From Opitutia bacterium (GTDB lineage: Bacteria > Verrucomicrobiota > Verrucomicrobiia > Opitutales > UBA953): a stretch of 55,104 nucleotides of DNA. The notes under the pieces were generated by a model. The model was not told the origin of the DNA, did no database searches, and saw nothing but the letters and a program-made list of their open reading frames with translations. The DNA lies in contig CANCHK010000008.1 in assembly GCA_947377865.1 (NCBI GenBank), positions 1-55,104 of the forward strand, in the 5' to 3' direction. Position numbers and translations under genes: made by a program. Below, one piece after another: positions 946 through 41,384 of the stretch. How positions within the stretch are numbered: position 1 is the stretch's first letter; each line of letters opens with the position of its first letter.

Positions 946-2151
946 ATGGCCACGATCGCAGTTCTCGGCACGCTTGATTCCAAGGGCGAAGAACATGCCT
1001 TCGTGGCCGCGCTCATCGCCCGCCACGGCCATAAGCCGCTGCTGATCGACGTCGGTACGGGCGGCCCGGCCACGGTGCAGCCCGACATCACCCGCGAACA
1101 GGTCGCCGCCGCCATCGGTCTCGACCTCGCCTCGTTGATGGCGAAGAAAGACCGTGGCGCCTGCGTCGTCGCGATGACCCACGCCGCCCCGGCCTTGGTC
1201 TCCAAGCTGGCGTCCGACGGACGCATCCACGGCATCATCTCCCTTGGCGGCGGCGGCGGCACCGCCATCGGTACGGCCGCGATGCGCGCCCTGCCCCTCG
1301 GCTTCCCGAAGCTCATGGTCTCGACCTTGGCCGCGGGCAATGTTGCCCCGTACCTCGGCACGAAGGACATCACGATGATGCCGAGCATCGCCGACGTGGC
1401 CGGCCTCAACCGCCTTTCTCGCGTCATCTTCACCCGCGCCGCCGGCGCGATCTGCGGCATGGTCTCCGCCGAACCCGAAGTCGGCGCCGCCAAACCCCTC
1501 ATCGTCGCCAGCCAGTTCGGCAACACGACCACCTGCGTCACGGAAGCCAAGAAGGTCCTCGAAGCCGCCGGGTATGAAGTTCTGGTCTTCGCCGCCACCG
1601 GCACGGGCGGACGCATCATGGAGTCGGTCATCGAGAGCGGCATCGTCTCGGGCGTGCTCGATGTCACCACGACCGAATGGGCCGACGAGCTCGTAGGTGG
1701 CAATCTCAACGCCGGCCCTGAGCGCATGGACGCCGGCGCCAAGGCGAACATCCCCGTGGTCGTCGCCCCGGGCTGCCTCGACATGGTGAACTTCGGCGAA
1801 CGCGCCTCGGTGCCGCCCAAGTTCGAAGGACGCAATTTCTATATCCACAACCCGCAGATCACACTGATGCGTACGACGGCCGACGAATGCCGCCAGCTCG
1901 GCGAGATCGTCGCAAAGAAAGCCAACGCCTATAAGGCAGGTACCGCGATCATGATCCCGAAGAAGGCGATCTCGGTCATCAGCGCCGCCGGCCAGCCTTT
2001 CCAAGACGCGGCCGCCGATGAAGCCCTCTTTACGGCGCTAAAGTCGAACGCCAAGGTTCCGGTGCAGGAATTTGACTTGGCGATCAATGACAAGGAGTTC
2101 GCCCAGGCTTGCGCCTATAAATTGATCGAGCTGATCGGGTGCCGTTCGTGA
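946..2151 (+). CDS. UPF0261 / Tm-1-like ATP-binding domain protein
   Basis: 401 aa, no signal peptide. The N-terminus (IAVLGTLDSKGEEHAF, residues 4-19) is the signature of the UPF0261/Tm-1-like family, a two-domain fold; the glycine-rich IISLGGGGGTAIGTAAM segment (about residues 95-111) fits a nucleotide- or phosphate-binding loop. Length matches the family. It follows the TIM-barrel gene by 4 bp and overlaps the transporter gene by 4 bp (GTGA), so the three genes probably form one operon. Bacterial members have no settled function; the plant homologue Tm-1 binds ATP and inhibits tobamovirus replication, which says little about the role here. A small-molecule metabolic role with the neighbouring barrel is my inference. 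Confidence 0.88.
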   Translation: MATIAVLGTLDSKGEEHAFVAALIARHGHKPLLIDVGTGGPATVQPDITREQVAAAIGLDLASLMAKKDRGACVVAMTHAAPALVSKLASDGRIHGIISLGGGGGTAIGTAAMRALPLGFPKLMVSTLAAGNVAPYLGTKDITMMPSIADVAGLNRLSRVIFTRAAGAICGMVSAEPEVGAAKPLIVASQFGNTTTCVTEAKKVLEAAGYEVLVFAATGTGGRIMESVIESGIVSGVLDVTTTEWADELVGGNLNAGPERMDAGAKANIPVVVAPGCLDMVNFGERASVPPKFEGRNFYIHNPQITLMRTTADECRQLGEIVAKKANAYKAGTAIMIPKKAISVISAAGQPFQDAAADEALFTALKSNAKVPVQEFDLAINDKEFAQACAYKLIELIGCRS

Positions 2152-3035
2152 ACGAGGCTTCTTCGATCCGTCGCTGGGCCACCATCGCGATGTTCTTCAA
2201 CGTCGTGGCCTGGGGCATGTCATGGGTGAACGTCCGGGCTGTCCTACCCGAAGTCGGCGCCGGCCAGCTCGGCGCCATGCGTTACCTCATCGCCTCTTCG
2301 GTCATGCTGCCGATCTGGCTCTATCGCGGCCGCCCCCTGCCCGCTCGTGGCGACTGGCCCGTGGTCGCCTCGCTCGGACTCTTCGGCTTCTGTCTCTATA
2401 ATCTCGGCATCAATTACGGTGAACGTACCGTGAACGCTGGCACAGGTTCGATGCTGATCTCCTGCATTCCCGTGCTGGTCATCCTGCTCGGCGTGCTCAC
2501 GGGTCGTGAACGCGTCGGCCTCTTCGCTTGGCTCGGGATCGGAGTCTCGATGACCGGAGTCGTGCTCACCGCCGCCGGATCCGAGGCGGGATTGACCTTC
2601 AATCTGGGTTCGATGCTGATCCTTGGCGCGGCCTTCTGTGCGGCCGTGCAGACCTTGATCAGCAAGGCCCTCACCCAACGCTATGCGGCGGTTGATGTGA
2701 CCACCTGGGCCATCTGGCTGGGCACGCTCGGGCTGCTGCCGTTCTCCGAAGACCTCATCGGCACGGCGGGTCGCCTCTCCGTAATGGGTTGGGTGCACCT
2801 CGCCTTCCTGGGCATGGTCCCCGCCGCTCTGTGCTATACGATCTGGTCCTGGGTGCTGGTGAAGCTACCGATCACGACCGTGATGAGCGCGGTATACGCA
2901 ATCCCGGTCTTCTCGGTGCTGTTCGGCTGGATGATTCTCGGCGAACGTCCTTCCTCCATGACCTTGGTCGGTGGCGCCGTCACCCTCGCCGGCGTCGCCT
3001 GGGTGCAGACGCTAACAAGGAAGCAGAAAAGTTGA
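2148..3035 (+). CDS. EamA/DMT-family inner-membrane transporter
   Basis: About 295 aa with roughly ten hydrophobic segments, in two halves each resembling an EamA repeat (first begins with MFFNVVAWGMSWVNVRAVLP; second with FNLGSMLILGAAFCAAVQTL). Usual length for drug/metabolite transporters of the RhaT/PecM/YdcZ-like group, which move small metabolites across the cytoplasmic membrane. GTG at 2148 overlaps the stop of the preceding gene (GTGA); an in-frame GTG at 2139 and ATG at 2190 are alternatives, and no Shine-Dalgarno sequence decides. The coupling suggests that it moves a substrate or product of the two upstream proteins (inference). Its stop codon lies inside the first unit of a GTTGAAYN octamer array. 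Confidence 0.85.
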   Translation: MNEASSIRRWATIAMFFNVVAWGMSWVNVRAVLPEVGAGQLGAMRYLIASSVMLPIWLYRGRPLPARGDWPVVASLGLFGFCLYNLGINYGERTVNAGTGSMLISCIPVLVILLGVLTGRERVGLFAWLGIGVSMTGVVLTAAGSEAGLTFNLGSMLILGAAFCAAVQTLISKALTQRYAAVDVTTWAIWLGTLGLLPFSEDLIGTAGRLSVMGWVHLAFLGMVPAALCYTIWSWVLVKLPITTVMSAVYAIPVFSVLFGWMILGERPSSMTLVGGAVTLAGVAWVQTLTRKQKS

Positions 3036-3058
3036 TTGGTTGGATGGTTGAATCGATG
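3031..3058 (+). repeat. Octamer array (GTTGAAYN-like), left arm
   Basis: Three phased units, GTTGATTG, GTTGGATG and GTTGAATC, begin at the stop codon of the transporter gene. With the opposite-strand array at 3106-3140 they make an inverted pair filling the ends of a 110-bp convergent junction. A second pair lies at 39691-39874. Confidence 0.7.
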
Positions 3059-3105
3059 AAATGACGCCGAAGGGTCGCAGCACGATTGTCTTGGGGGCAT
3101 CTCCT

Positions 3106-3140
3106 CTGGCCAACCATTCAACTATTCAACCCATCAACTT
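3106..3140 (-). repeat. Octamer array (GTTGAAYN-like), right arm
   Basis: Read on the minus strand the units are GTTGATGG, GTTGAATA, GTTGAATG and GTTGGCCA, followed by GAGG. They lie just downstream of the stop codon of the large fusion gene. The terminal GTTGGCCAGAG is shared with the array at 39837-39874. Confidence 0.7.
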
Positions 3141-3145
3141 ATCAC

Positions 3146-6100
3146 TCACTTCCCCAACTCCGCCGGCGTCCACGGCGCGGTACGGTCATGGGTCGCTTCG
3201 CGGACGGCTTTGACTTCCTCGGGCTTCACGGCCGGAGCCTGGTTGCCGAAGGCCGAACGCACGTAAGTCAGGACGTCGGCGAGCTGCTGATCGTCCAAGC
3301 CCATGGGCGGCATCGGGACAAGGCCGTAATCCTTGCCTTGGACCTTGGTGGGGCCGGCCAGACCATGCATGGTAATCCGGATGAGGGTCTGGGCATCGCC
3401 GGCAACCCATTCGCTCTTGGCCAACGGAGGGTAGACTCCAGTCAGACCTTGGGCCGAAGCCTGGTGGCAATTAAGGCAGAGGGCCTCGTAGATGGCTTGG
3501 CCTGGTGAAATCACCGCAGGACCGCTGCTCTGGATCTTTTTGAGATAGGCGGCCTGAGGAGCGGACAGTTCGGTAGGCAGCTTACCGGCGGTGGGTAGCA
3601 AGTGTCGAACGGTCTGCTTGAGGGCGTAATCAAGGAACTTGTCCGTGGGCTGATCAACAGTCGCTAGCGCGGTACGCAGCGAAGGCTGACCACCAACATG
3701 GCTGAGGGCCACGACCGCTTCAAGCCTGACGCGGGGCTGCGGGTCAGCGATAGCCTTGGCCAGACGAGATTGGGCGTCGGGCAGCTGGCTCGACCATTCA
3801 CCGACGACGCGGGCGGCATAGGCACGAATTCGGAAATCGGCCGAAGACTGAAGACGGTCAAGTAAGGCCGGACGCACAAGGCCGTGGGACTGCAATACGC
3901 CCATGGCTTCGAGATATTGAGACTCCGAGCGGTCCTTCGCGATAAAGGCATCCGCGGCGGGGGCGACATTCTCAGTCGGACGGTAGAATAATAGACGTCG
4001 GGCCTGGTAGCGCGTCCAGCGCTCAGTCGAACCGAGCTGAGCGAACAAATCACCTTCCGTCATCGATACGAGGTCAGGCTGTTTCACGGTCGGCAGGCCC
4101 TTGGCGGTGATACGCCAGATGCGTCCGTGCGAACGATCGCGGCGTGGGTCGGCGTAGCTGGCCTGATAATGGCCGATGACGGCGTTGAACCAATCGCAGG
4201 CATACAGCGCACCGTCCGGTCCGACCGAGACGTCGACGGGTCTGAAGGCCTTGCTGCTGGAGATGATGGGGCTGACGATGCGCTCGGTCTTGAAGCCGGA
4301 GCCATCATCCACGAAGCGATGCAAGTCGATGGTGTTGCCGTAATACCCGCCAATCAAAGCGGCACCTTGCAGGTCAGCCGGCATGGCCTTGGTGCCGACG
4401 ATATCGATAGAGTTGGACTTCAGCGGCGAATCAAAGAGCGAATGCGTGCCGGCATACTCGTCCGGAGTCTCGATCGCTCCGAGGCCCGGCAGGCTGTAGT
4501 AGCCGGCGACGCGGTCACCGCTCTTATGGAACGGCTGGAAGAAGTCGTCGAACGCGACACCCCAGCAGTTATGGCCGGCCTTGCCATACTGGAAGAACGG
4601 CTGCAGGCGCTGGTTCTTGAGATCGTAGCGCATCAAGCCCGACTTAGGTAGGCTAACGATACCACGCGGCGTCTCGACGCGCGTGATGGCGTGAAGGCCT
4701 TGGCTCATCCACAGCGTGCCATCTGGACCGTGGCAAATCGAATTGACCAACTGGTGGGTGTCACCAACGCCAAAGCCGGACATCAGGACCTCCGTCTTGT
4801 CCGCTTTGCCGTCTCCATCGGTATCGGTCAGCTTGATGAGGCGATCGAAATCGCAGACAAGGATCGACGTGTTACCGACATCGTCGGTCAGGGGCTCAAC
4901 GCCTTGGACCATGGTCAGGCCTTCGGCGAAACGTACGGCCTTGTCGGCCTTGCCGTCGCCGTCGGTATCCTCGAGACGGAGGATGTAGTCGCGAGGCTTT
5001 ACGCCAGGCACCGCCTGCGGATAGGTCGGCGAGCAGCAGACAAACAGACGCCCCTTGGCGTCCCAGGCCATCTGGGTGGGCTTGGCGAGACCAAGCAACT
5101 CATCAGCGAAGAGATTGACCTCAAATCCGTCGGCGACCTTGAAGGTGGCCTGCTCCTCGGCGGCGGACATGACCTTCTCGGTGCTCACGGCCGGTCCGGC
5201 CTGCGCCGCCGGAGCCTGGGACATCTGGCCGCGGGCCAAGGCTTGGATGTGCTTATCCCATGACGAGACCAAGGGTTTATAGGCTTCGAAGTTTTCCTTC
5301 AGCGAAGGCACCGGGCCGAAGCCCTTGCCGTAGTTCTGCGAAATGCGGTCCCCGTAGACGAACGACCAGTTGGCCGGGCGCCAACAATCGGCCCAAAGGC
5401 GATTCTTCTCAATGATGGCTAAGGGTAAACCAACCGGGCGATAAAGGGGTTCTGGCAGGCCGAGCTTCCGGGCGCATTCCTGCGCGACCACGGCGAGACC
5501 TTCGTCCGAGAGATGCAGGCCATCGGTCGACATCACGTCGCGGGCGACGGTGGTGAGGTCGACGTAAGGCAGGCCACGCAGCTTGGCGATCTCTTCGACG
5601 GCCGCGGCGTAATCGGCGAGATCCTGGCGGTGTGCCGCCGTCGTCAGGTCAGGCGGGCGCTGCGACTTCATGAAACCGGCCGGAGACAGCAGCACAATCC
5701 TCGGCGTATGGCGGCTGAGATCGTCGAGCAGTTTATGGTAGTCGGCCTTGAACTTCGCCAAGCCGGCCTGACCTTCAAGCGCTTCGGCCTGGCCGAACTG
5801 GACGATGAGCGTGGACGCGCCTGCGGACTCGAGCTGCCCTTTCCATGGACCGAAATTAAGGTCGCGCCACTGCTCATGGACCGTGTCCGCTTCCCAGGCC
5901 ATAGATCGGAAGACCGGATTCTTTGCGGCATAGGCTTGGGCGATGCGTGACTCTATTTCGCCAGACTTGGCTTCACGGACGAAATTCTCCTGACCGATGA
6001 AGACGACGACTTCGTCCTGACCAAGGTCGAATTTCCCATCCTTGAATGGAGCAGGCGGCACCCAGACTGACTTCACTTCGCCGAAACGGTTCAGCACCAT

Positions 6101-6772
6101 TTCCTTGGTCGTGACCGGAAGGTCGTTTAGGGGATCAAGAACGATATTCCGGTAATGAATCTCGGCCTTGTTGTTGCCGTGGATCTGGAGACCGATGAGG
6201 CCGTACGCATCGTCGATGGACGGATCCGTCTCGGTGTAATCCAGCGTGGCCTTGCCATTGAGGAAAATCGTGATGCGCGGACCCTCGGCGCGGACCTCAT
6301 ACTTATTCCATTCACCCTTCTTCTCGAGTTCGGCGATCTCCGTGTCGGCCTTGACGCCATAGGCGCCCACGCCGGTACCGGCACGGGCCAAGAACTTCTT
6401 GCGGCGGGATTCATCATAGAGGGAACCCGTATGGCCTTGTCCGATATCCGCCTGATAGCCGATCATCTCGTTGGGCGGATTGGTCGCGCGCAGGCTGCGG
6501 AACTGGACGCCGGCGTTCACGAAGCCCTCGGTGCCGATGAGCTTGTACTCCAACGTCAGGCGGAAGTTATAAAAGGTGCGCTTGGTCGTCAGGAACTCGT
6601 TACGCGGATTACCCTGCAGGGAGCCGCCCACAATCTCGCCATTCTCGACTCGCCAGACTTTGGCGTCCCCTTCCCACCCGGTGAGCGTCTTGCCATCGAA
6701 CAGCGGTGCCGGCGCGGCAACCAGGCCAAGGATGCCGGCGAACAGGCCGAAGACAGGAGCAAGTCGCTTCAT
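3146..6772 (-). CDS. Secreted DUF1080 - SGNH - beta-propeller - cytochrome c fusion
   Basis: 1208 aa multidomain protein. Residues 1-20 are a Sec signal peptide. Residues about 22-213 are a DUF1080 domain (3-keto-disaccharide hydrolase-like; LFDGKTLTGWEG). About 250-440 is an SGNH/GDSL-like module that keeps the DGLHLSDEG block, but the usual Gly-Asp-Ser nucleophile region reads FIGQENF, so esterase activity is doubtful. About 545-890 is a PVC-type 'membrane-bound dehydrogenase' beta-propeller with two DTDGDGKAD loops resembling calcium sites. A HEAT-like helical stretch follows, then a cytochrome c domain with CLNCH at 1099-1103 and a likely Met ligand in MPPMG near 1154-1157. Probably extracytoplasmic, coupling keto-sugar chemistry to electron transfer (inference). 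It lies downstream of the GMC/subunit-3 pair but behind a strong terminator, so it likely has its own promoter. Confidence 0.85.
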   Translation of the reverse strand: MKRLAPVFGLFAGILGLVAAPAPLFDGKTLTGWEGDAKVWRVENGEIVGGSLQGNPRNEFLTTKRTFYNFRLTLEYKLIGTEGFVNAGVQFRSLRATNPPNEMIGYQADIGQGHTGSLYDESRRKKFLARAGTGVGAYGVKADTEIAELEKKGEWNKYEVRAEGPRITIFLNGKATLDYTETDPSIDDAYGLIGLQIHGNNKAEIHYRNIVLDPLNDLPVTTKEMVLNRFGEVKSVWVPPAPFKDGKFDLGQDEVVVFIGQENFVREAKSGEIESRIAQAYAAKNPVFRSMAWEADTVHEQWRDLNFGPWKGQLESAGASTLIVQFGQAEALEGQAGLAKFKADYHKLLDDLSRHTPRIVLLSPAGFMKSQRPPDLTTAAHRQDLADYAAAVEEIAKLRGLPYVDLTTVARDVMSTDGLHLSDEGLAVVAQECARKLGLPEPLYRPVGLPLAIIEKNRLWADCWRPANWSFVYGDRISQNYGKGFGPVPSLKENFEAYKPLVSSWDKHIQALARGQMSQAPAAQAGPAVSTEKVMSAAEEQATFKVADGFEVNLFADELLGLAKPTQMAWDAKGRLFVCCSPTYPQAVPGVKPRDYILRLEDTDGDGKADKAVRFAEGLTMVQGVEPLTDDVGNTSILVCDFDRLIKLTDTDGDGKADKTEVLMSGFGVGDTHQLVNSICHGPDGTLWMSQGLHAITRVETPRGIVSLPKSGLMRYDLKNQRLQPFFQYGKAGHNCWGVAFDDFFQPFHKSGDRVAGYYSLPGLGAIETPDEYAGTHSLFDSPLKSNSIDIVGTKAMPADLQGAALIGGYYGNTIDLHRFVDDGSGFKTERIVSPIISSSKAFRPVDVSVGPDGALYACDWFNAVIGHYQASYADPRRDRSHGRIWRITAKGLPTVKQPDLVSMTEGDLFAQLGSTERWTRYQARRLLFYRPTENVAPAADAFIAKDRSESQYLEAMGVLQSHGLVRPALLDRLQSSADFRIRAYAARVVGEWSSQLPDAQSRLAKAIADPQPRVRLEAVVALSHVGGQPSLRTALATVDQPTDKFLDYALKQTVRHLLPTAGKLPTELSAPQAAYLKKIQSSGPAVISPGQAIYEALCLNCHQASAQGLTGVYPPLAKSEWVAGDAQTLIRITMHGLAGPTKVQGKDYGLVPMPPMGLDDQQLADVLTYVRSAFGNQAPAVKPEEVKAVREATHDRTAPWTPAELGK

Positions 6773-38000: not shown

Positions 38001-38230
38001 CCTTCCGCAAGGTGGTCCGCCGCGAAGCGACGGCCGCCGAACTGGCGGTGCTGCGCAAGGGCCTCGACAAGCGCCTCGCGACGTACGCCGCCGATCCCAC
38101 GCTCGCCCCGAAGCTGCTCGCCCAAGGCATGAGCCCCGCGCCGACCGACCTCGACCGCAACCAGCTGGCCTCCTGGACGGCGACGGCTAACATCCTCCTC
38201 AATCTCGACGAAACCGTCACCCGCGAATGA
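35096..38230 (+). CDS. PSD1 protein: PSCyt1 - DUF1549 - DUF1553 (pair 3)
   Basis: 1044 aa. Signal peptide about 1-22. PSCyt1 domain with CYACHGPDENKVKG (Cys42-His46) and DDHMPPAEFHK, whose Met is the probable second heme ligand. DUF1549 about 140-350 with YGENMAMQWLDFARYADS and the second heme-type motif CCRCHDHKYDPI near residue 325. A central beta-rich region (about 430-600) and an Ala/Lys-rich helix (about 620-680) precede the FVLIRGEYDKIG motif. DUF1553 follows (HPLTARVWINRAWERFFGIG) to the C-terminus (ANILLNLDETVTRE). The stop codon overlaps the DUF1501 start by 4 bp (ATGA), so they are coupled. Its promoter must lie between the terminator at 35036 and 35096. Confidence 0.9.
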   Translation: MRPALPLLAVAGTLLFDSSPAAERIQFNRDIRPIFSDTCYACHGPDENKVKGKLRLDSLDAARKGGKSGEPAITPGHPEKSEVMKRLLTKDSDDHMPPAEFHKVLSKAQIALVEQWIKDGAEYQGHWAFQTPVKPAIPSIPAGGNAIDGFLAQGLAAKGLKPNGDAPKATLLRRAALDLTGLPPSDADLQAFLADASSDAWSKAIDRLMASPHYGENMAMQWLDFARYADSNGFQSDTQRTMWPYRDWVIKAFNDNKPFDAFTVEQLAGDLLPHATRDQIVATAFHRNHRLNGEGGRIVEEWFAENVIDRIETTGSTWMGLTMNCCRCHDHKYDPISQKEFYQFFAYFNSNDESGVLGDFGGSGTTRRGGNTPPALSLPTEEQQKKIDETSAALASAQTALKEIPASQPELFTKWLERQRAAFSKEGVAWQPLPNEKVTAKENAEFKRLDDGSWLVSGGTAAKETHVVEASPDPGLLTAVRLEALPDDSHPNKSLGRAFNGNFVLSGFEVRLLTADGKTTNLPLVKAEADFDQPGWSIAKLAPAPMAKGKAKKADNTKAGWAIGGNAAENRVPRKAIFTIAPTNIPAGAKLVVVMRHEAVSAHSMGRFRLNTSGQDPKLLSLKTDPAAEAARRLLAKPADQLTKADGKALEKLFADSPEHPRFAATAKVAAAKVAADAANAAPVTVMVMKEADKPRDAFVLIRGEYDKIGPKVERKLPAFLPPLPAGEPNNRLGFARWLVSGQHPLTARVWINRAWERFFGIGLVKTSENFGSQAEWPSNPELLDWLAVEFVDRKWDMKAMQKLIMTSAAYRRSAAVTPEMLDKDPENRLLARGPRFRLPAEVIRDQALWTAGLLVDKQGGPSVKPYMPEAVWDETSVYGDMRNYKSDTGEGLWRRSLYTIWKRTAAPPTMLLFDSAGREVCTVKRSRSNTPMQALSLLNEVTFVEAARKLAEQSLRQPGDNDAKLAWTFRKVVRREATAAELAVLRKGLDKRLATYAADPTLAPKLLAQGMSPAPTDLDRNQLASWTATANILLNLDETVTRE

Positions 38231-39690
38231 ACTGCAACGACCGTCAATTCCTGGGATTAGACCAGGCCACCCGCATGGCCCTGTCCCGCCGCACCTTCAT
38301 CAAGGGTTCCGCCGGCGGCATCGGCCTCGCCGCGCTGGGCTCGCTGATGGGCACGCCGGCCTTCGCCGCCAACCCGGGCCTGGGCTTCCCGAACTTCAAG
38401 CCGAAGGCGAAGCGCATCATCTACCTGTTCCAGTCCGGCGCGCCGTCGCAGATGGACCTCTTTGACCCGAAGCCGCAACTGGAAGCGATGCGCGGCAAGG
38501 ACCTCCCGGAATCCATCCGCAAGGGCCAGCGCCTGACGACAATGACCTCGGGTCAGAAGGCCTTCCCTGTCGCGCCGACAATCTTCAAGTTCAAGCAGCA
38601 CGGCCAGTCGGGCAACTGGTTCAGCGAACTGATCCCCCACATCGCCTCGAAGTCCGATGAATGGTGCGTGGTGCGCGCGATGCACACGGAAGCGATCAAC
38701 CACGACCCGGCGATCACCTTCATGCAGACGGGCAGCCAGCTGGCGGGTCGCCCGAGCATCGGCGCCTGGTCCGCCTACGGCCTCGGCAGCGAGAACGCCG
38801 ACCTCCCCGCCTACGTGGTGATGACGTCCTTCGGCAGCGGCCGCCCTGACGATCAGCCGCTCTACGACCGCCTCTGGGGCGCGGGCTTCCTGCCCTCCAA
38901 GCTCCAAGGGGTGAAGCTCCGCAACAAGGGCGAGCGCGTGCTCTACCTCAAGGATCCTGAAGGCATCCCCCGCGAGGTCCGTCGCGAACAGCTCGACGAG
39001 ATTGCCGCCCTCAACAACCAGCGGCACGGCGTCCTGGGCGACCCGGAGATCCAGACCCGCATCTCGCAATACGAGATGGCCTTCCGCATGCAGACGAGCG
39101 TCCCTGACCTGCTTGACCTCTCGAAGGAACCACAGCACGTGCTCGATCTCTACGGTCCCGACGTGAAGCGACCCGGATCCTACGCCTCGAACTGCCTCCT
39201 GGCCCGCCGTCTCTGCGAACGCGACGTCCGCTTCGTCCAGCTCTTCCACATGGGCTGGGACCACCACGGCGGCCTGCCCAAGGCCATCAAGGGCCAGTGC
39301 AACGACACCGACCAGGCCACAGCCGGCCTCCTCACCGACCTCAAGCAGCGCGGGCTGCTCGACGACACGCTCGTCGTCTGGGGCGGTGAATTCGGCCGCA
39401 CGACCTATTCGCAAGGCACGCTGACCGAGACCAACTACGGCCGCGACCACCACCCCCGCTGCTTCACGGTCCTGATGGCCGGCGCCGGCGTCAACAAGGG
39501 CACGACCTTCGGCGAGACCGACGACTTCAGCTACAACATCGTCAAGGACGGGGTGCACGTGCACGACCTCAACGCGACGATCCTGCACCTGATGGGCGTC
39601 GAGCACACCCGCCTGACCTACCGACACCAAGGCCGCGACTTCCGCCTCACCGATATCCACGGCGAAGTGGTCAAGAAGCTCTTGGCGTAA
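38227..39690 (+). CDS. Tat-exported DUF1501 protein (pair 3)
   Basis: 487 aa. The Tat motif SRRTFIKGSAGGIGLAALG starts near residue 20 and ends in a PAFAA-type cleavage region. DUF1501 core motifs: IIYLFQSGAPSQMDLFDPK, CVVRAMHTEAINHDPA, WGGEFGRTT, GRDHHPRCFTVLMAGAG and VHDLNATILHLMG. The whole family layout is present, so the protein is intact. It overlaps its PSD1 partner by 4 bp. The sequence immediately after the stop is an octamer array that, with an opposite-strand array before the sulfatase stop, fills the convergent junction. Enzymatic function unknown. Confidence 0.9.
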   Translation: MNCNDRQFLGLDQATRMALSRRTFIKGSAGGIGLAALGSLMGTPAFAANPGLGFPNFKPKAKRIIYLFQSGAPSQMDLFDPKPQLEAMRGKDLPESIRKGQRLTTMTSGQKAFPVAPTIFKFKQHGQSGNWFSELIPHIASKSDEWCVVRAMHTEAINHDPAITFMQTGSQLAGRPSIGAWSAYGLGSENADLPAYVVMTSFGSGRPDDQPLYDRLWGAGFLPSKLQGVKLRNKGERVLYLKDPEGIPREVRREQLDEIAALNNQRHGVLGDPEIQTRISQYEMAFRMQTSVPDLLDLSKEPQHVLDLYGPDVKRPGSYASNCLLARRLCERDVRFVQLFHMGWDHHGGLPKAIKGQCNDTDQATAGLLTDLKQRGLLDDTLVVWGGEFGRTTYSQGTLTETNYGRDHHPRCFTVLMAGAGVNKGTTFGETDDFSYNIVKDGVHVHDLNATILHLMGVEHTRLTYRHQGRDFRLTDIHGEVVKKLLA

Positions 39691-39730
39691 TTGAGTAGTT
39701 GACCTGTTGAACGGTTGAACTGTTGGCCAG
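39691..39730 (+). repeat. Octamer array (GTTGAAYN-like), left arm of second locus
   Basis: Phased units after the stop codon: TTGAGTA, GTTGACCT, GTTGAACG, GTTGAACT, GTTGGCCA, then GACATAG. The first full unit starts at 39698. Confidence 0.75.
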
Positions 39731-39836
39731 ACATAGCGCATTGCGGCCTGGTATTAAAAAGTCCATGAGGCATCCAAGGGTCACTCAACTGGACTCCTGG
39801 TTAGCATTCACCAATTAGAGGTAGCAGGCAGCCTCT

Positions 39837-39874
39837 CTGGCCAACCAATCAACAGTTCAACTGTTCAACTAACG
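39837..39874 (-). repeat. Octamer array (GTTGAAYN-like), right arm of second locus
   Basis: On the minus strand: GTTGAACA, GTTGAACT, GTTGATTG, GTTGGCCA, then GAGAGG. It lies 5 bp after the sulfatase stop codon. The 106 bp between the two arms show no ORF or tRNA. Confidence 0.75.
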
Positions 39875-39878
39875 CAGG

Positions 39879-41384
39879 TCACTTCCCCATCTGCTCCCGG
39901 TACATCACCTTGAAGGGATTCTCGGCGGGGCCTTGGGCGTTCTCATTGACCATCAGCGGGCGACATTCCTTCCACCAGGCGTCATGCTTGGCGATGAGCT
40001 CGGCGACGACTTCCGGATGCTTCGCGGCGACGTCGGTCGTCTCGCCATAATCGACGCTCAGGTCAAAGAGCTCCCAATTAGCCGCCACCTGGACAAAGTC
40101 TGCCGGTGACTGCTGGGCTTTCTTCCCGGCCTTGCCTTTAACCTTGGCGGCTCCGGCGACCGCGGCACCGGTCGACACGAGATGCCACCGAGTCGTACGC
40201 ACGCTCGTACCCGAAAACTTACCCGTCTCAGGATCGACACCTTTGACCATATTACCCCAGCGGCCGACGTGCGTGAAGAGCACTCGATCCGGCCAGGCGA
40301 TATCCTGACCCACTTTTGCGGTCAGCAACGGGACGAGGCTGCGGCCTTCCATCTGGGCCTTCATCTGGTCAGAAGCTGGCGTGCCGGTGAGCTCAAGAAT
40401 CGTCGGGGCAAAATCAATGTGAGCGGCCAGCGCCTTGACGTCGGCTGGGAGGAACTGTCCCGGCAAGCGCCAAAAAGACATGGCCCGGATACCGCCCATG
40501 TAAGGCGTACCTTTGCCCGAGTGCATGCCCGCGTTGAAGACCTTCACGCCTGCGGTACCGCCGTTGTCGTTCATCAAGACAATCAAGGTGTCTTTGGCGA
40601 TACCCATGGCCTCGACCTTCGCCAGTAGCTTGCCGACGTTCTGGTCGATGTTATGTATCATGCCGAAGAAGTTCTCGGTATCCTTACCCAAATCTTTGCC
40701 TTCGTAGAGAGCGGCGTCTTCCGGCTTAGCGTGATAAGGACCGTGCGGCGCATTGGTCGCGATATAAGCGTAGAACGGACGCTTGGCCGCGGACTCGCCC
40801 TCGATCCATTGCGTCGCCTGCTTAAAGAACTCATCGGTACAATACCCTTCGGTCTTCACGAACTTGCCGTTGTGCAACAGGGTCGGTCCGTAATAGGAAT
40901 TTTTGGGCACATCACCGCAGCTGCCCGGGTAGCTCTGACCGATGCCACCGGCGCCATGGATATAAACTTCGTCGAAGCCGCGCTTGCCGGGCTGATACTC
41001 GGCCTCGTCGCCGAGGTGCCACTTGCCAAAAATGCCGGTGCGATAGCCGGCCTTCTGCAACTGCTGGGCGAGCGTCACCGAGCCGAGTGCCATGCGCTCA
41101 CGTTCCAAGATCGTATGGGTGATACCGTTCTTGAATTCGTGGCGGCCCGTCAGCAAGGCACTGCGCGTCGGCGAACAGGTCGGCGAGACCTGGAAATCGG
41201 TGAAGCGGACACTTTCCGATCGGAGCTTGTCGATATTAGGGGTCTTCAGCACGGGGTTACCGTGGGCGCTCAGGTCGCCGTAACCCTGGTCGTCCGTCAG
41301 GATGAAGATGACGTTGGGTCGATCCGCGGCCACGACGGCCACCGAGCAGACAAGCATCAGGATGCGGAACAGGGGTGTAAGCAT
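39879..41384 (-). CDS. Secreted sulfatase, arylsulfatase A-like (type I)
   Basis: 501 aa. Signal peptide about 1-20. The N-terminal metal motif is ILTDDQGYGDLSAHG (Asp31-Asp32). The formylglycine motif is CSPTR with Cys70 in SPTCSPTRSALLTGR, so it needs a formylglycine-generating enzyme. Then come KWHLGD, the metal/sulfate-site MNDNGGTAG and SGKGTPYMGGIR. Length fits S1 family sulfatases. Acts outside the cytoplasm on a sulfated sugar or aryl sulfate; subfamily cannot be assigned here. Convergent with the DUF1501 gene at its 3' end and divergent from the cytochrome gene at 41473. No maturase gene lies in the window. Confidence 0.93.
   Translation of the reverse strand: MLTPLFRILMLVCSVAVVAADRPNVIFILTDDQGYGDLSAHGNPVLKTPNIDKLRSESVRFTDFQVSPTCSPTRSALLTGRHEFKNGITHTILERERMALGSVTLAQQLQKAGYRTGIFGKWHLGDEAEYQPGKRGFDEVYIHGAGGIGQSYPGSCGDVPKNSYYGPTLLHNGKFVKTEGYCTDEFFKQATQWIEGESAAKRPFYAYIATNAPHGPYHAKPEDAALYEGKDLGKDTENFFGMIHNIDQNVGKLLAKVEAMGIAKDTLIVLMNDNGGTAGVKVFNAGMHSGKGTPYMGGIRAMSFWRLPGQFLPADVKALAAHIDFAPTILELTGTPASDQMKAQMEGRSLVPLLTAKVGQDIAWPDRVLFTHVGRWGNMVKGVDPETGKFSGTSVRTTRWHLVSTGAAVAGAAKVKGKAGKKAQQSPADFVQVAANWELFDLSVDYGETTDVAAKHPEVVAELIAKHDAWWKECRPLMVNENAQGPAENPFKVMYREQMGK

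Follow-up and report, generated by a model that had tools for sequence, protein, structure and literature searches.

What are the short phased repeats that open and close the gap between two convergent genes at positions 3031–3140 of this DNA, and how do they relate to the ends of those genes? The window (the whole stretch of 55,104 nucleotides that we analyzed) comes from a 2.32-Mb MAG (76% complete) of a freshwater genus of the Opitutales, and loci orthologous to its own were found mostly in Opitutales/Opitutae MAGs, many of them from lakes. An earlier note, made from the sequence alone, had described phased octamer arrays at both ends of the gap, each following the stop codon of its own gene in the sense direction, as well as the same family in a second convergent junction, and in all three respects the sequence agrees.

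The gap is preceded by an EamA-family transporter gene on the plus strand (2139–3035; PF00892, E 1.2e-42), whose stop codon TGA (3033–3035) indeed lies inside the first octamer of the left array. This array is composed of three GTTG octamers, GTTGATTG GTTGGATG GTTGAATC (3031–3054, plus strand), whose four variable letters (N4) read ATTG, GATG and AATC, and of a degenerate fourth octamer, GATGAAAT (3055–3062, plus strand), which keeps the phase, four being the usual number of cores. After a 44-bp interior (3063–3106, no strand), the last letters of which, CTCCTCTGGC, are the inner end of the right array, there are four octamers on the minus strand, GTTGATGG GTTGAATA GTTGAATG GTTGGCCA, then GAGG (3107–3138; N4 ATGG, AATA, AATG and GCCA; inner end GTTGGCCAGAGG). 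This right array stands 7 nt from the stop of a minus-strand fusion gene (3146–6772) with domain matches to a 3-keto-disaccharide hydrolase, GDSL lipase, DUF7133, HEAT and cytochrome c. The second element lies between a DUF1501 gene (38227–39690, plus strand; PF07394) and a sulfatase gene (39879–41384, minus strand; PF00884), the stop of which is 9 nt away, and consists of four octamers on the plus strand (39698–39729; N4 ACCT, AACG, AACT and GCCA), a 108-bp interior (39730–39837, no strand) and four octamers on the minus strand (39838–39869; N4 AACA, AACT, ATTG and GCCA; inner end GTTGGCCAGAGAGG). Two details had been put too broadly: the arrays occupy both ends of the gaps but do not fill them, the 44-bp and 108-bp interiors holding none, and in the window just one of the two arms in each pair has the complete form (GTTGGCCAGAG) of the terminal sequence described as common to the pairs.

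The window contains 7 matches to GTTG(N4GTTG)2 where 0.01 were expected from dinucleotide shuffles, which excludes chance; low complexity was likewise ruled out, by the shuffles and by the finding that among spacings 5–14 only a spacing of 8 is enriched (83 vs 0–9). When all 256 four-letter cores were compared at this spacing, GTTG (complement CAAC) ranked first and GAGG second. The whole genome holds 51 + 57 three-unit matches, and from sampled stretches of this genome and of same-genus species, some of them picked for bearing arrays and all with gene calls from a home-made finder, we collected 171 arrays of at least 3 units. The element they represent spans 32 nt, as four octamers with the consensus A-GTTGAYCN-GTTGAYCN-GTTGGCCR-GTTGGCCA-GAGAG, so that, like REP elements, they share a common consensus motif. 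Exactly four cores are present in 140 of the 171 arrays (three in 26, more in 5), and 490 of 493 units have a purine at position 5. The sense strand is rich in G and poor in C (G 0.35, C 0.17; antisense C 0.35, G 0.17), and what follows the array is the purine-rich tail GAGAG and no T-run. The window gave no match in Rfam, the best sub-threshold hit, to let-7 (22.7 bits against a gathering cut-off of 53.5), being taken as chance; a phage origin was set aside after viral contigs yielded no exact match.

Relative to genes, the arrays are neither randomly placed nor internal: 167 of the 171 are intergenic, which, together with the 51 + 57 matches, makes them extragenic and many in copy number, as REPs are. 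After a stop codon, 113 arrays are sense-oriented, at a median distance of 18 nt, and many of the distances fall into two groups (-5 to 24 nt and 44 to 66 nt). Up to 30 nt from a stop we counted 55 sense arrays and 1 antisense (the latter counted in tandem gaps), and tandem gaps with a single array hold 32 in sense and 8 in antisense. Opposed arrays within one gap point inward in 40 cases and outward in 0. By gap type, the counts were 76 for tandem, 49 for convergent and 16 for divergent gaps, where gap length would predict 87, 25 and 29 (p 1.6e-7); convergent gaps are thus enriched and divergent gaps depleted, though not empty of arrays. The convergent setting first described therefore holds as an enrichment but not as a rule, as tandem gaps bear arrays too and single sense arrays behind tandem genes are the most frequent arrangement. 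Since the unit often stands behind a single gene, the inverted convergent pair is one arrangement among several.

The intrinsic terminators of the same genes were scanned as a hairpin plus T-run in a 300-nt window, comparing genes with an array at most 30 nt away to genes without one. In convergent gaps, a terminator was found behind 0 of 33 array genes and 48 of 163 others (p 7e-5); tandem gaps displayed the same trend, not significant (3 of 27 vs 93 of 352, p 0.11), and the scan was positive behind 5 of 86 array genes. The array itself was rejected as an intrinsic terminator: such terminators sit where arrays do, behind the stop, and at one orthologous junction the two replace each other, but arrays lack a single GC stem with a T-run (U-tract) after it. 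That junction lies behind a DUF59 (SufT-like) gene, where an array stands 13–18 nt from the stop in 13 of 30 loci and several other loci carry a stem GTCCGCC..GGCGGAC with a T-run where the array would be. Of two loci here (L183 and L185), each with a protein 99% identical to the query, one has the array and the other the terminator, and the sequence further downstream is common to both. The suggestion that the array is a transcript-end element thus gains from the sense position after stops, from the near-exclusion of terminators in convergent gaps and from the DUF59 exchange; the inverted convergent pair is one case of it and not the rule.

Orthologous arrays are present in related species, as conservation of the family would have it, and they come and go: at the purC junction and at that of a third gene, the array is found in some species and is missing in others, and at the junction of the window's fusion gene an inverted pair is present in L055, L074 and L077, almost no gap is left in L080 and L082, and different repeats are found elsewhere. 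Some of these loci (L036, L040, L057 and L038) carry GGTAGGG...CCCTACC hairpins at this junction, which resemble GTAG-tagged REPs; such REPs are reported to be abundant in Opitutus terrae (PMC3733652). Across four orthologous junctions, divergence per site was 0–0.11 in the cores and 0.12–0.38 in N4, a contrast that is in part one of ascertainment, because arrays are recognized by their cores.

As for folding, the pair of element 2 folds better than shuffles (z -5.2), as does that of element 1 (z -3.6 for one strand and -2.1 for the other), and single arrays with no mate are barely better than shuffles (mean z -0.6). A hairpin maintained by compensatory changes was rejected, since the arms revealed no covariation in register, nor in any register by duplex energy; the variable letters of an element's two arms complement each other no better than those of arms from different elements, and, as to MITE-type terminal inverted repeats, the arms match at the cores only. 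An apparent covariation over all pairs (p 0.001) came from the mixing of two subfamilies. Given arms without matched variable letters and the conservation of mateless single arrays, pairing would be a by-product of the cores, or else the cores would suffice for it. A small hairpin of units 3–4 showed weak covariation (p 0.01) and was dropped as a general feature, being complete in only 42%.

We further considered whether the array may be a mobile miniature repeat, as the earlier note had also proposed. Speaking for this, compact elements of 4+4 units (97–111 bp) recur, with 81–97% identical copies on contig C4 and one on C48, and sites turn over between species; against it, neither a transposase nor a target duplication nor a clean empty site was found for the arrays, orthologous sites without the element notwithstanding. 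The near-identical copies have flanking repeats in common and may hence have moved as larger blocks. In three stretches of genome G014 (L164, L174 and L178), a 97-bp array element is repeated with both flanks in common and is thereby part of a larger repeat. Contig C4 (genome G000; L021, L119–L121) is densely populated by compact array elements, of which some are nearly identical and some lie in divergent gaps, and at about 20119–48837 it holds one predicted gene of about 28.7 kb. Y1_Tnp genes are present in 28 of 55 genomes of the genus, and a RAYT/Y1 transposase was rejected as the mover because none of 30 Y1_Tnp loci of the genus bears a GTTG array of at least 3 units; the array consensus also lacks the GTAG tag by which GTAG-REPs with a RAYT are recognized. 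Of the Y1/RAYT genes at L272–L301, the four examined in full (L272, L275, L276 and L300) have GGGGTCAGGCC / GGTCAGACC repeats next to them, which form a separate family unconnected with the GTTG arrays. At one locus (L348, near 2682), the element's first GTTG falls on a GTTG with which, in related species, the YqeY-like gene upstream ends, and octamer 2 supplies the stop; in this one case the overlap is a possible insertion target.

Beyond the genome, 19 of 38 relatives carry arrays, all of one genus and with a patchy distribution; 13 other families of the order were sampled and had none, and the same design is present in other families of the class. In genome G345 (family f26), four GTTGAGNN units with the inner end GAGAGGA are followed by a 19–42 bp interior and four units back (about 83–106 bp in all), forming long hairpins with breaks some eight bases apart (z -8 to -10). 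Here pairing was worse between the two arms of one element than between swapped arms (p 0.004, n 12; p 0.08 with genome G075 added), which is suggestive only. In this family, 13 of 14 pairs, two of them from G075, lie between co-directional genes, in most cases 1–8 nt from the next gene, for example before tsf and before ispD, and they probably occupy gaps inside operons. Across species of this f26 genus, the ispD/tsf gaps (L418–L425, L426–L433) contain GTTGA octamers, heptamers of AACGTCC type or GTTGAGA, a different hairpin, or nothing, the octamers being absent from the species other than that of G345; architecture and address outlast the sequence of the unit. The exact compact pattern was found in 4 of 387 genomes of the phylum, and the reversed control in 0.

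The GTTG arrays may belong to a wider group of phased repeats. Intergenic arrays of period 6, 7 and 8 number about 250–360 per Mb, against about 2–5 in coding sequence, and the same intergenic spaces hold none of period 5, 9, 10, 11 or 13. In convergent gaps, GAGG octamers (13:0) and GCGG heptamers (20:3) are mostly oriented as sense arrays of the nearer gene. GAGG octamers (GAGGCCCG GAGGCCCA GAGGCTCA GTTGACCA) were seen in L159, L161 and other stretches of genomes G000, G015, G011 and G016, the gaps of which also contain G[GT]GG octamers, GCGG and GAGTAT heptamers and GGGGTA hexamers. Cores can be mixed within one array: near 7766 of L156, GAGG, GTTG, GTTG and GAGG follow each other in one 8-nt phase.

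Among known systems, the closest in behavior are the REP/BIME elements, GTAG-tagged ones included (PMC3733652, PMC12306157, PMC2817692), which are likewise short, extragenic and present in about a hundred copies per genome, stand downstream of coding regions in tandem and convergent gaps and more rarely in divergent ones, frequently form inverted pairs, and have ends able to supply a stop codon. They differ in form: REP units are palindromes or stem-loops of about 14–40 nt, whereas the array unit is four phased octamers with variable letters and no palindrome, carries no GTAG/CGTC tag and has no RAYT gene seen adjoining; and as to BIMEs, composed of two opposed REP units, opposed arrays do point inward (40 to 0), but they are not built of REPs and many arrays are solitary. 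As the unit is no palindrome, lacks the GTAG tag and has no RAYT association, we do not claim the array as a REP. Imperfect long palindromes and MITEs (Correia/NEMIS, RUP, ERIC) share with the compact form its length of about 88–111 bp, its non-coding nature, inverted ends and intergenic site, but the arms here are repeat arrays with different letters left and right, solitary arrays exist and no target duplication was found. The STRR repeats of cyanobacteria are short tandem intergenic repeats too, yet they are heptamers not limited to four units, and we know of no inward pairing among them. To our knowledge, repeated extragenic elements are described almost only as palindromes. The TAACTGA heptamers of Beggiatoaceae (PMC4679880) also form many intergenic sets of 2–6 phased repeats with fixed orientation and unit-step indels, but those lie mostly upstream of starts and have identical units, whereas GTTG arrays lie behind stops, have a degenerate half-unit and form inward pairs. 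The literature we searched, literal repeat strings included, held no described match for the array, so that the statement that no described element has this form stands for the array as such, but not for its location, inward pairing and stop-codon supply, all described for REP elements (PMC3733652).

Taken together, we tentatively read the array as a dispersed extragenic, REP/BIME-like 3'-boundary element, made of phased octamers instead of one palindrome, and hold this to be possible at somewhat less than an even chance. Four octamers, constant in their GTTG(A/G) core and free in the other letters, with a purine-rich GAGAG end and lying in sense just after a stop, would be expected in the 3' end of the mRNA; two inward arrays would pair into one long stem with regular breaks, and the array would mark or protect the RNA end where a gene lacks an intrinsic terminator, for example if Rho-dependent termination occurs further downstream, a single inward pair serving both genes of a convergent gap. 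In E. coli, REP hairpins stabilize RNA 3' ends and do not terminate transcription (PMC13289151). A role of this kind would cover both settings, the terminator-less gene ends of the window's genus and the operon gaps of f26, whose elements, in probable operon gaps such as that before tsf, fit a REP-like hairpin and not a terminator. That the arrays are transcribed, fold in the cell and have any effect on RNA or transcription we infer from their sequence and placement. A terminator proper, necessarily protein-dependent as no U-tract follows the array, would account for the DUF59 exchange, the exclusion of intrinsic terminators from convergent gaps and the GAGAG tail without a T-run, but it would silence the next gene in the co-directional f26 gaps, and the G-rich, C-poor sense strand is unlike a Rho loading site, which makes it quite unlikely. 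Read in antisense, G4 and R5 of each unit would give a YC every 8 nt on the C-rich opposite strand, a ladder that could load Rho and block antisense transcription into the gene; this would suit convergent gaps, yet many arrays lie in tandem gaps with no evident antisense source, and rut sites are usually spaced more widely than 8 nt, so we regard it as highly improbable.

More probable than either, though still doubtful, is a selfish miniature element of MITE/REP-like kind, with array ends read by a transposase and insertions tolerated behind stops. The recurrent compact copies on contig C4, the orthologous sites that are filled (the window, L055, L074, L077) or nearly empty (L080, L082) and the patchy distribution all point this way; the lack of target-site duplications and clean boundaries, the common flanks of near-identical copies and the array-free Y1 loci do not, random insertion would leave the 32:8 sense bias of single arrays unexplained, and the cores kept at orthologous sites suggest constraint. 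The fixed phase, the four units, the kept cores with free N4, the arms without covariation and the use of other cores (GAGG) in the same 8-nt phase in the same genomes would also be consistent with a four-site platform on RNA or DNA for a protein that recognizes GTTG(A/G) at 8-nt intervals; we consider this very unlikely, as no candidate protein was identified, cores vary by family and species, and inward pairing (40:0) and the regular f26 hairpins would go unexplained. Extending the boundary-element reading, the arrays could even constitute a separate 3'-end class of Verrucomicrobiota, an unlikely proposal in which phased arrays of period 7 or 8, with a fixed core, a free remainder and hairpins broken at each period, would have their units replaced by lineage while site and architecture last, read or made by a dedicated putative factor.

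To conclude, this freshwater genus has an array that attains the address and behavior of a REP from four phased, fixed-core octamers and changes places with intrinsic terminators. A selfish array would have, in its degenerate arms, an unusual type of transposon end; one that sets RNA ends would represent a novel way to end or protect messages, a question that can be tested directly in species pairs of which only one has the array at a given junction.
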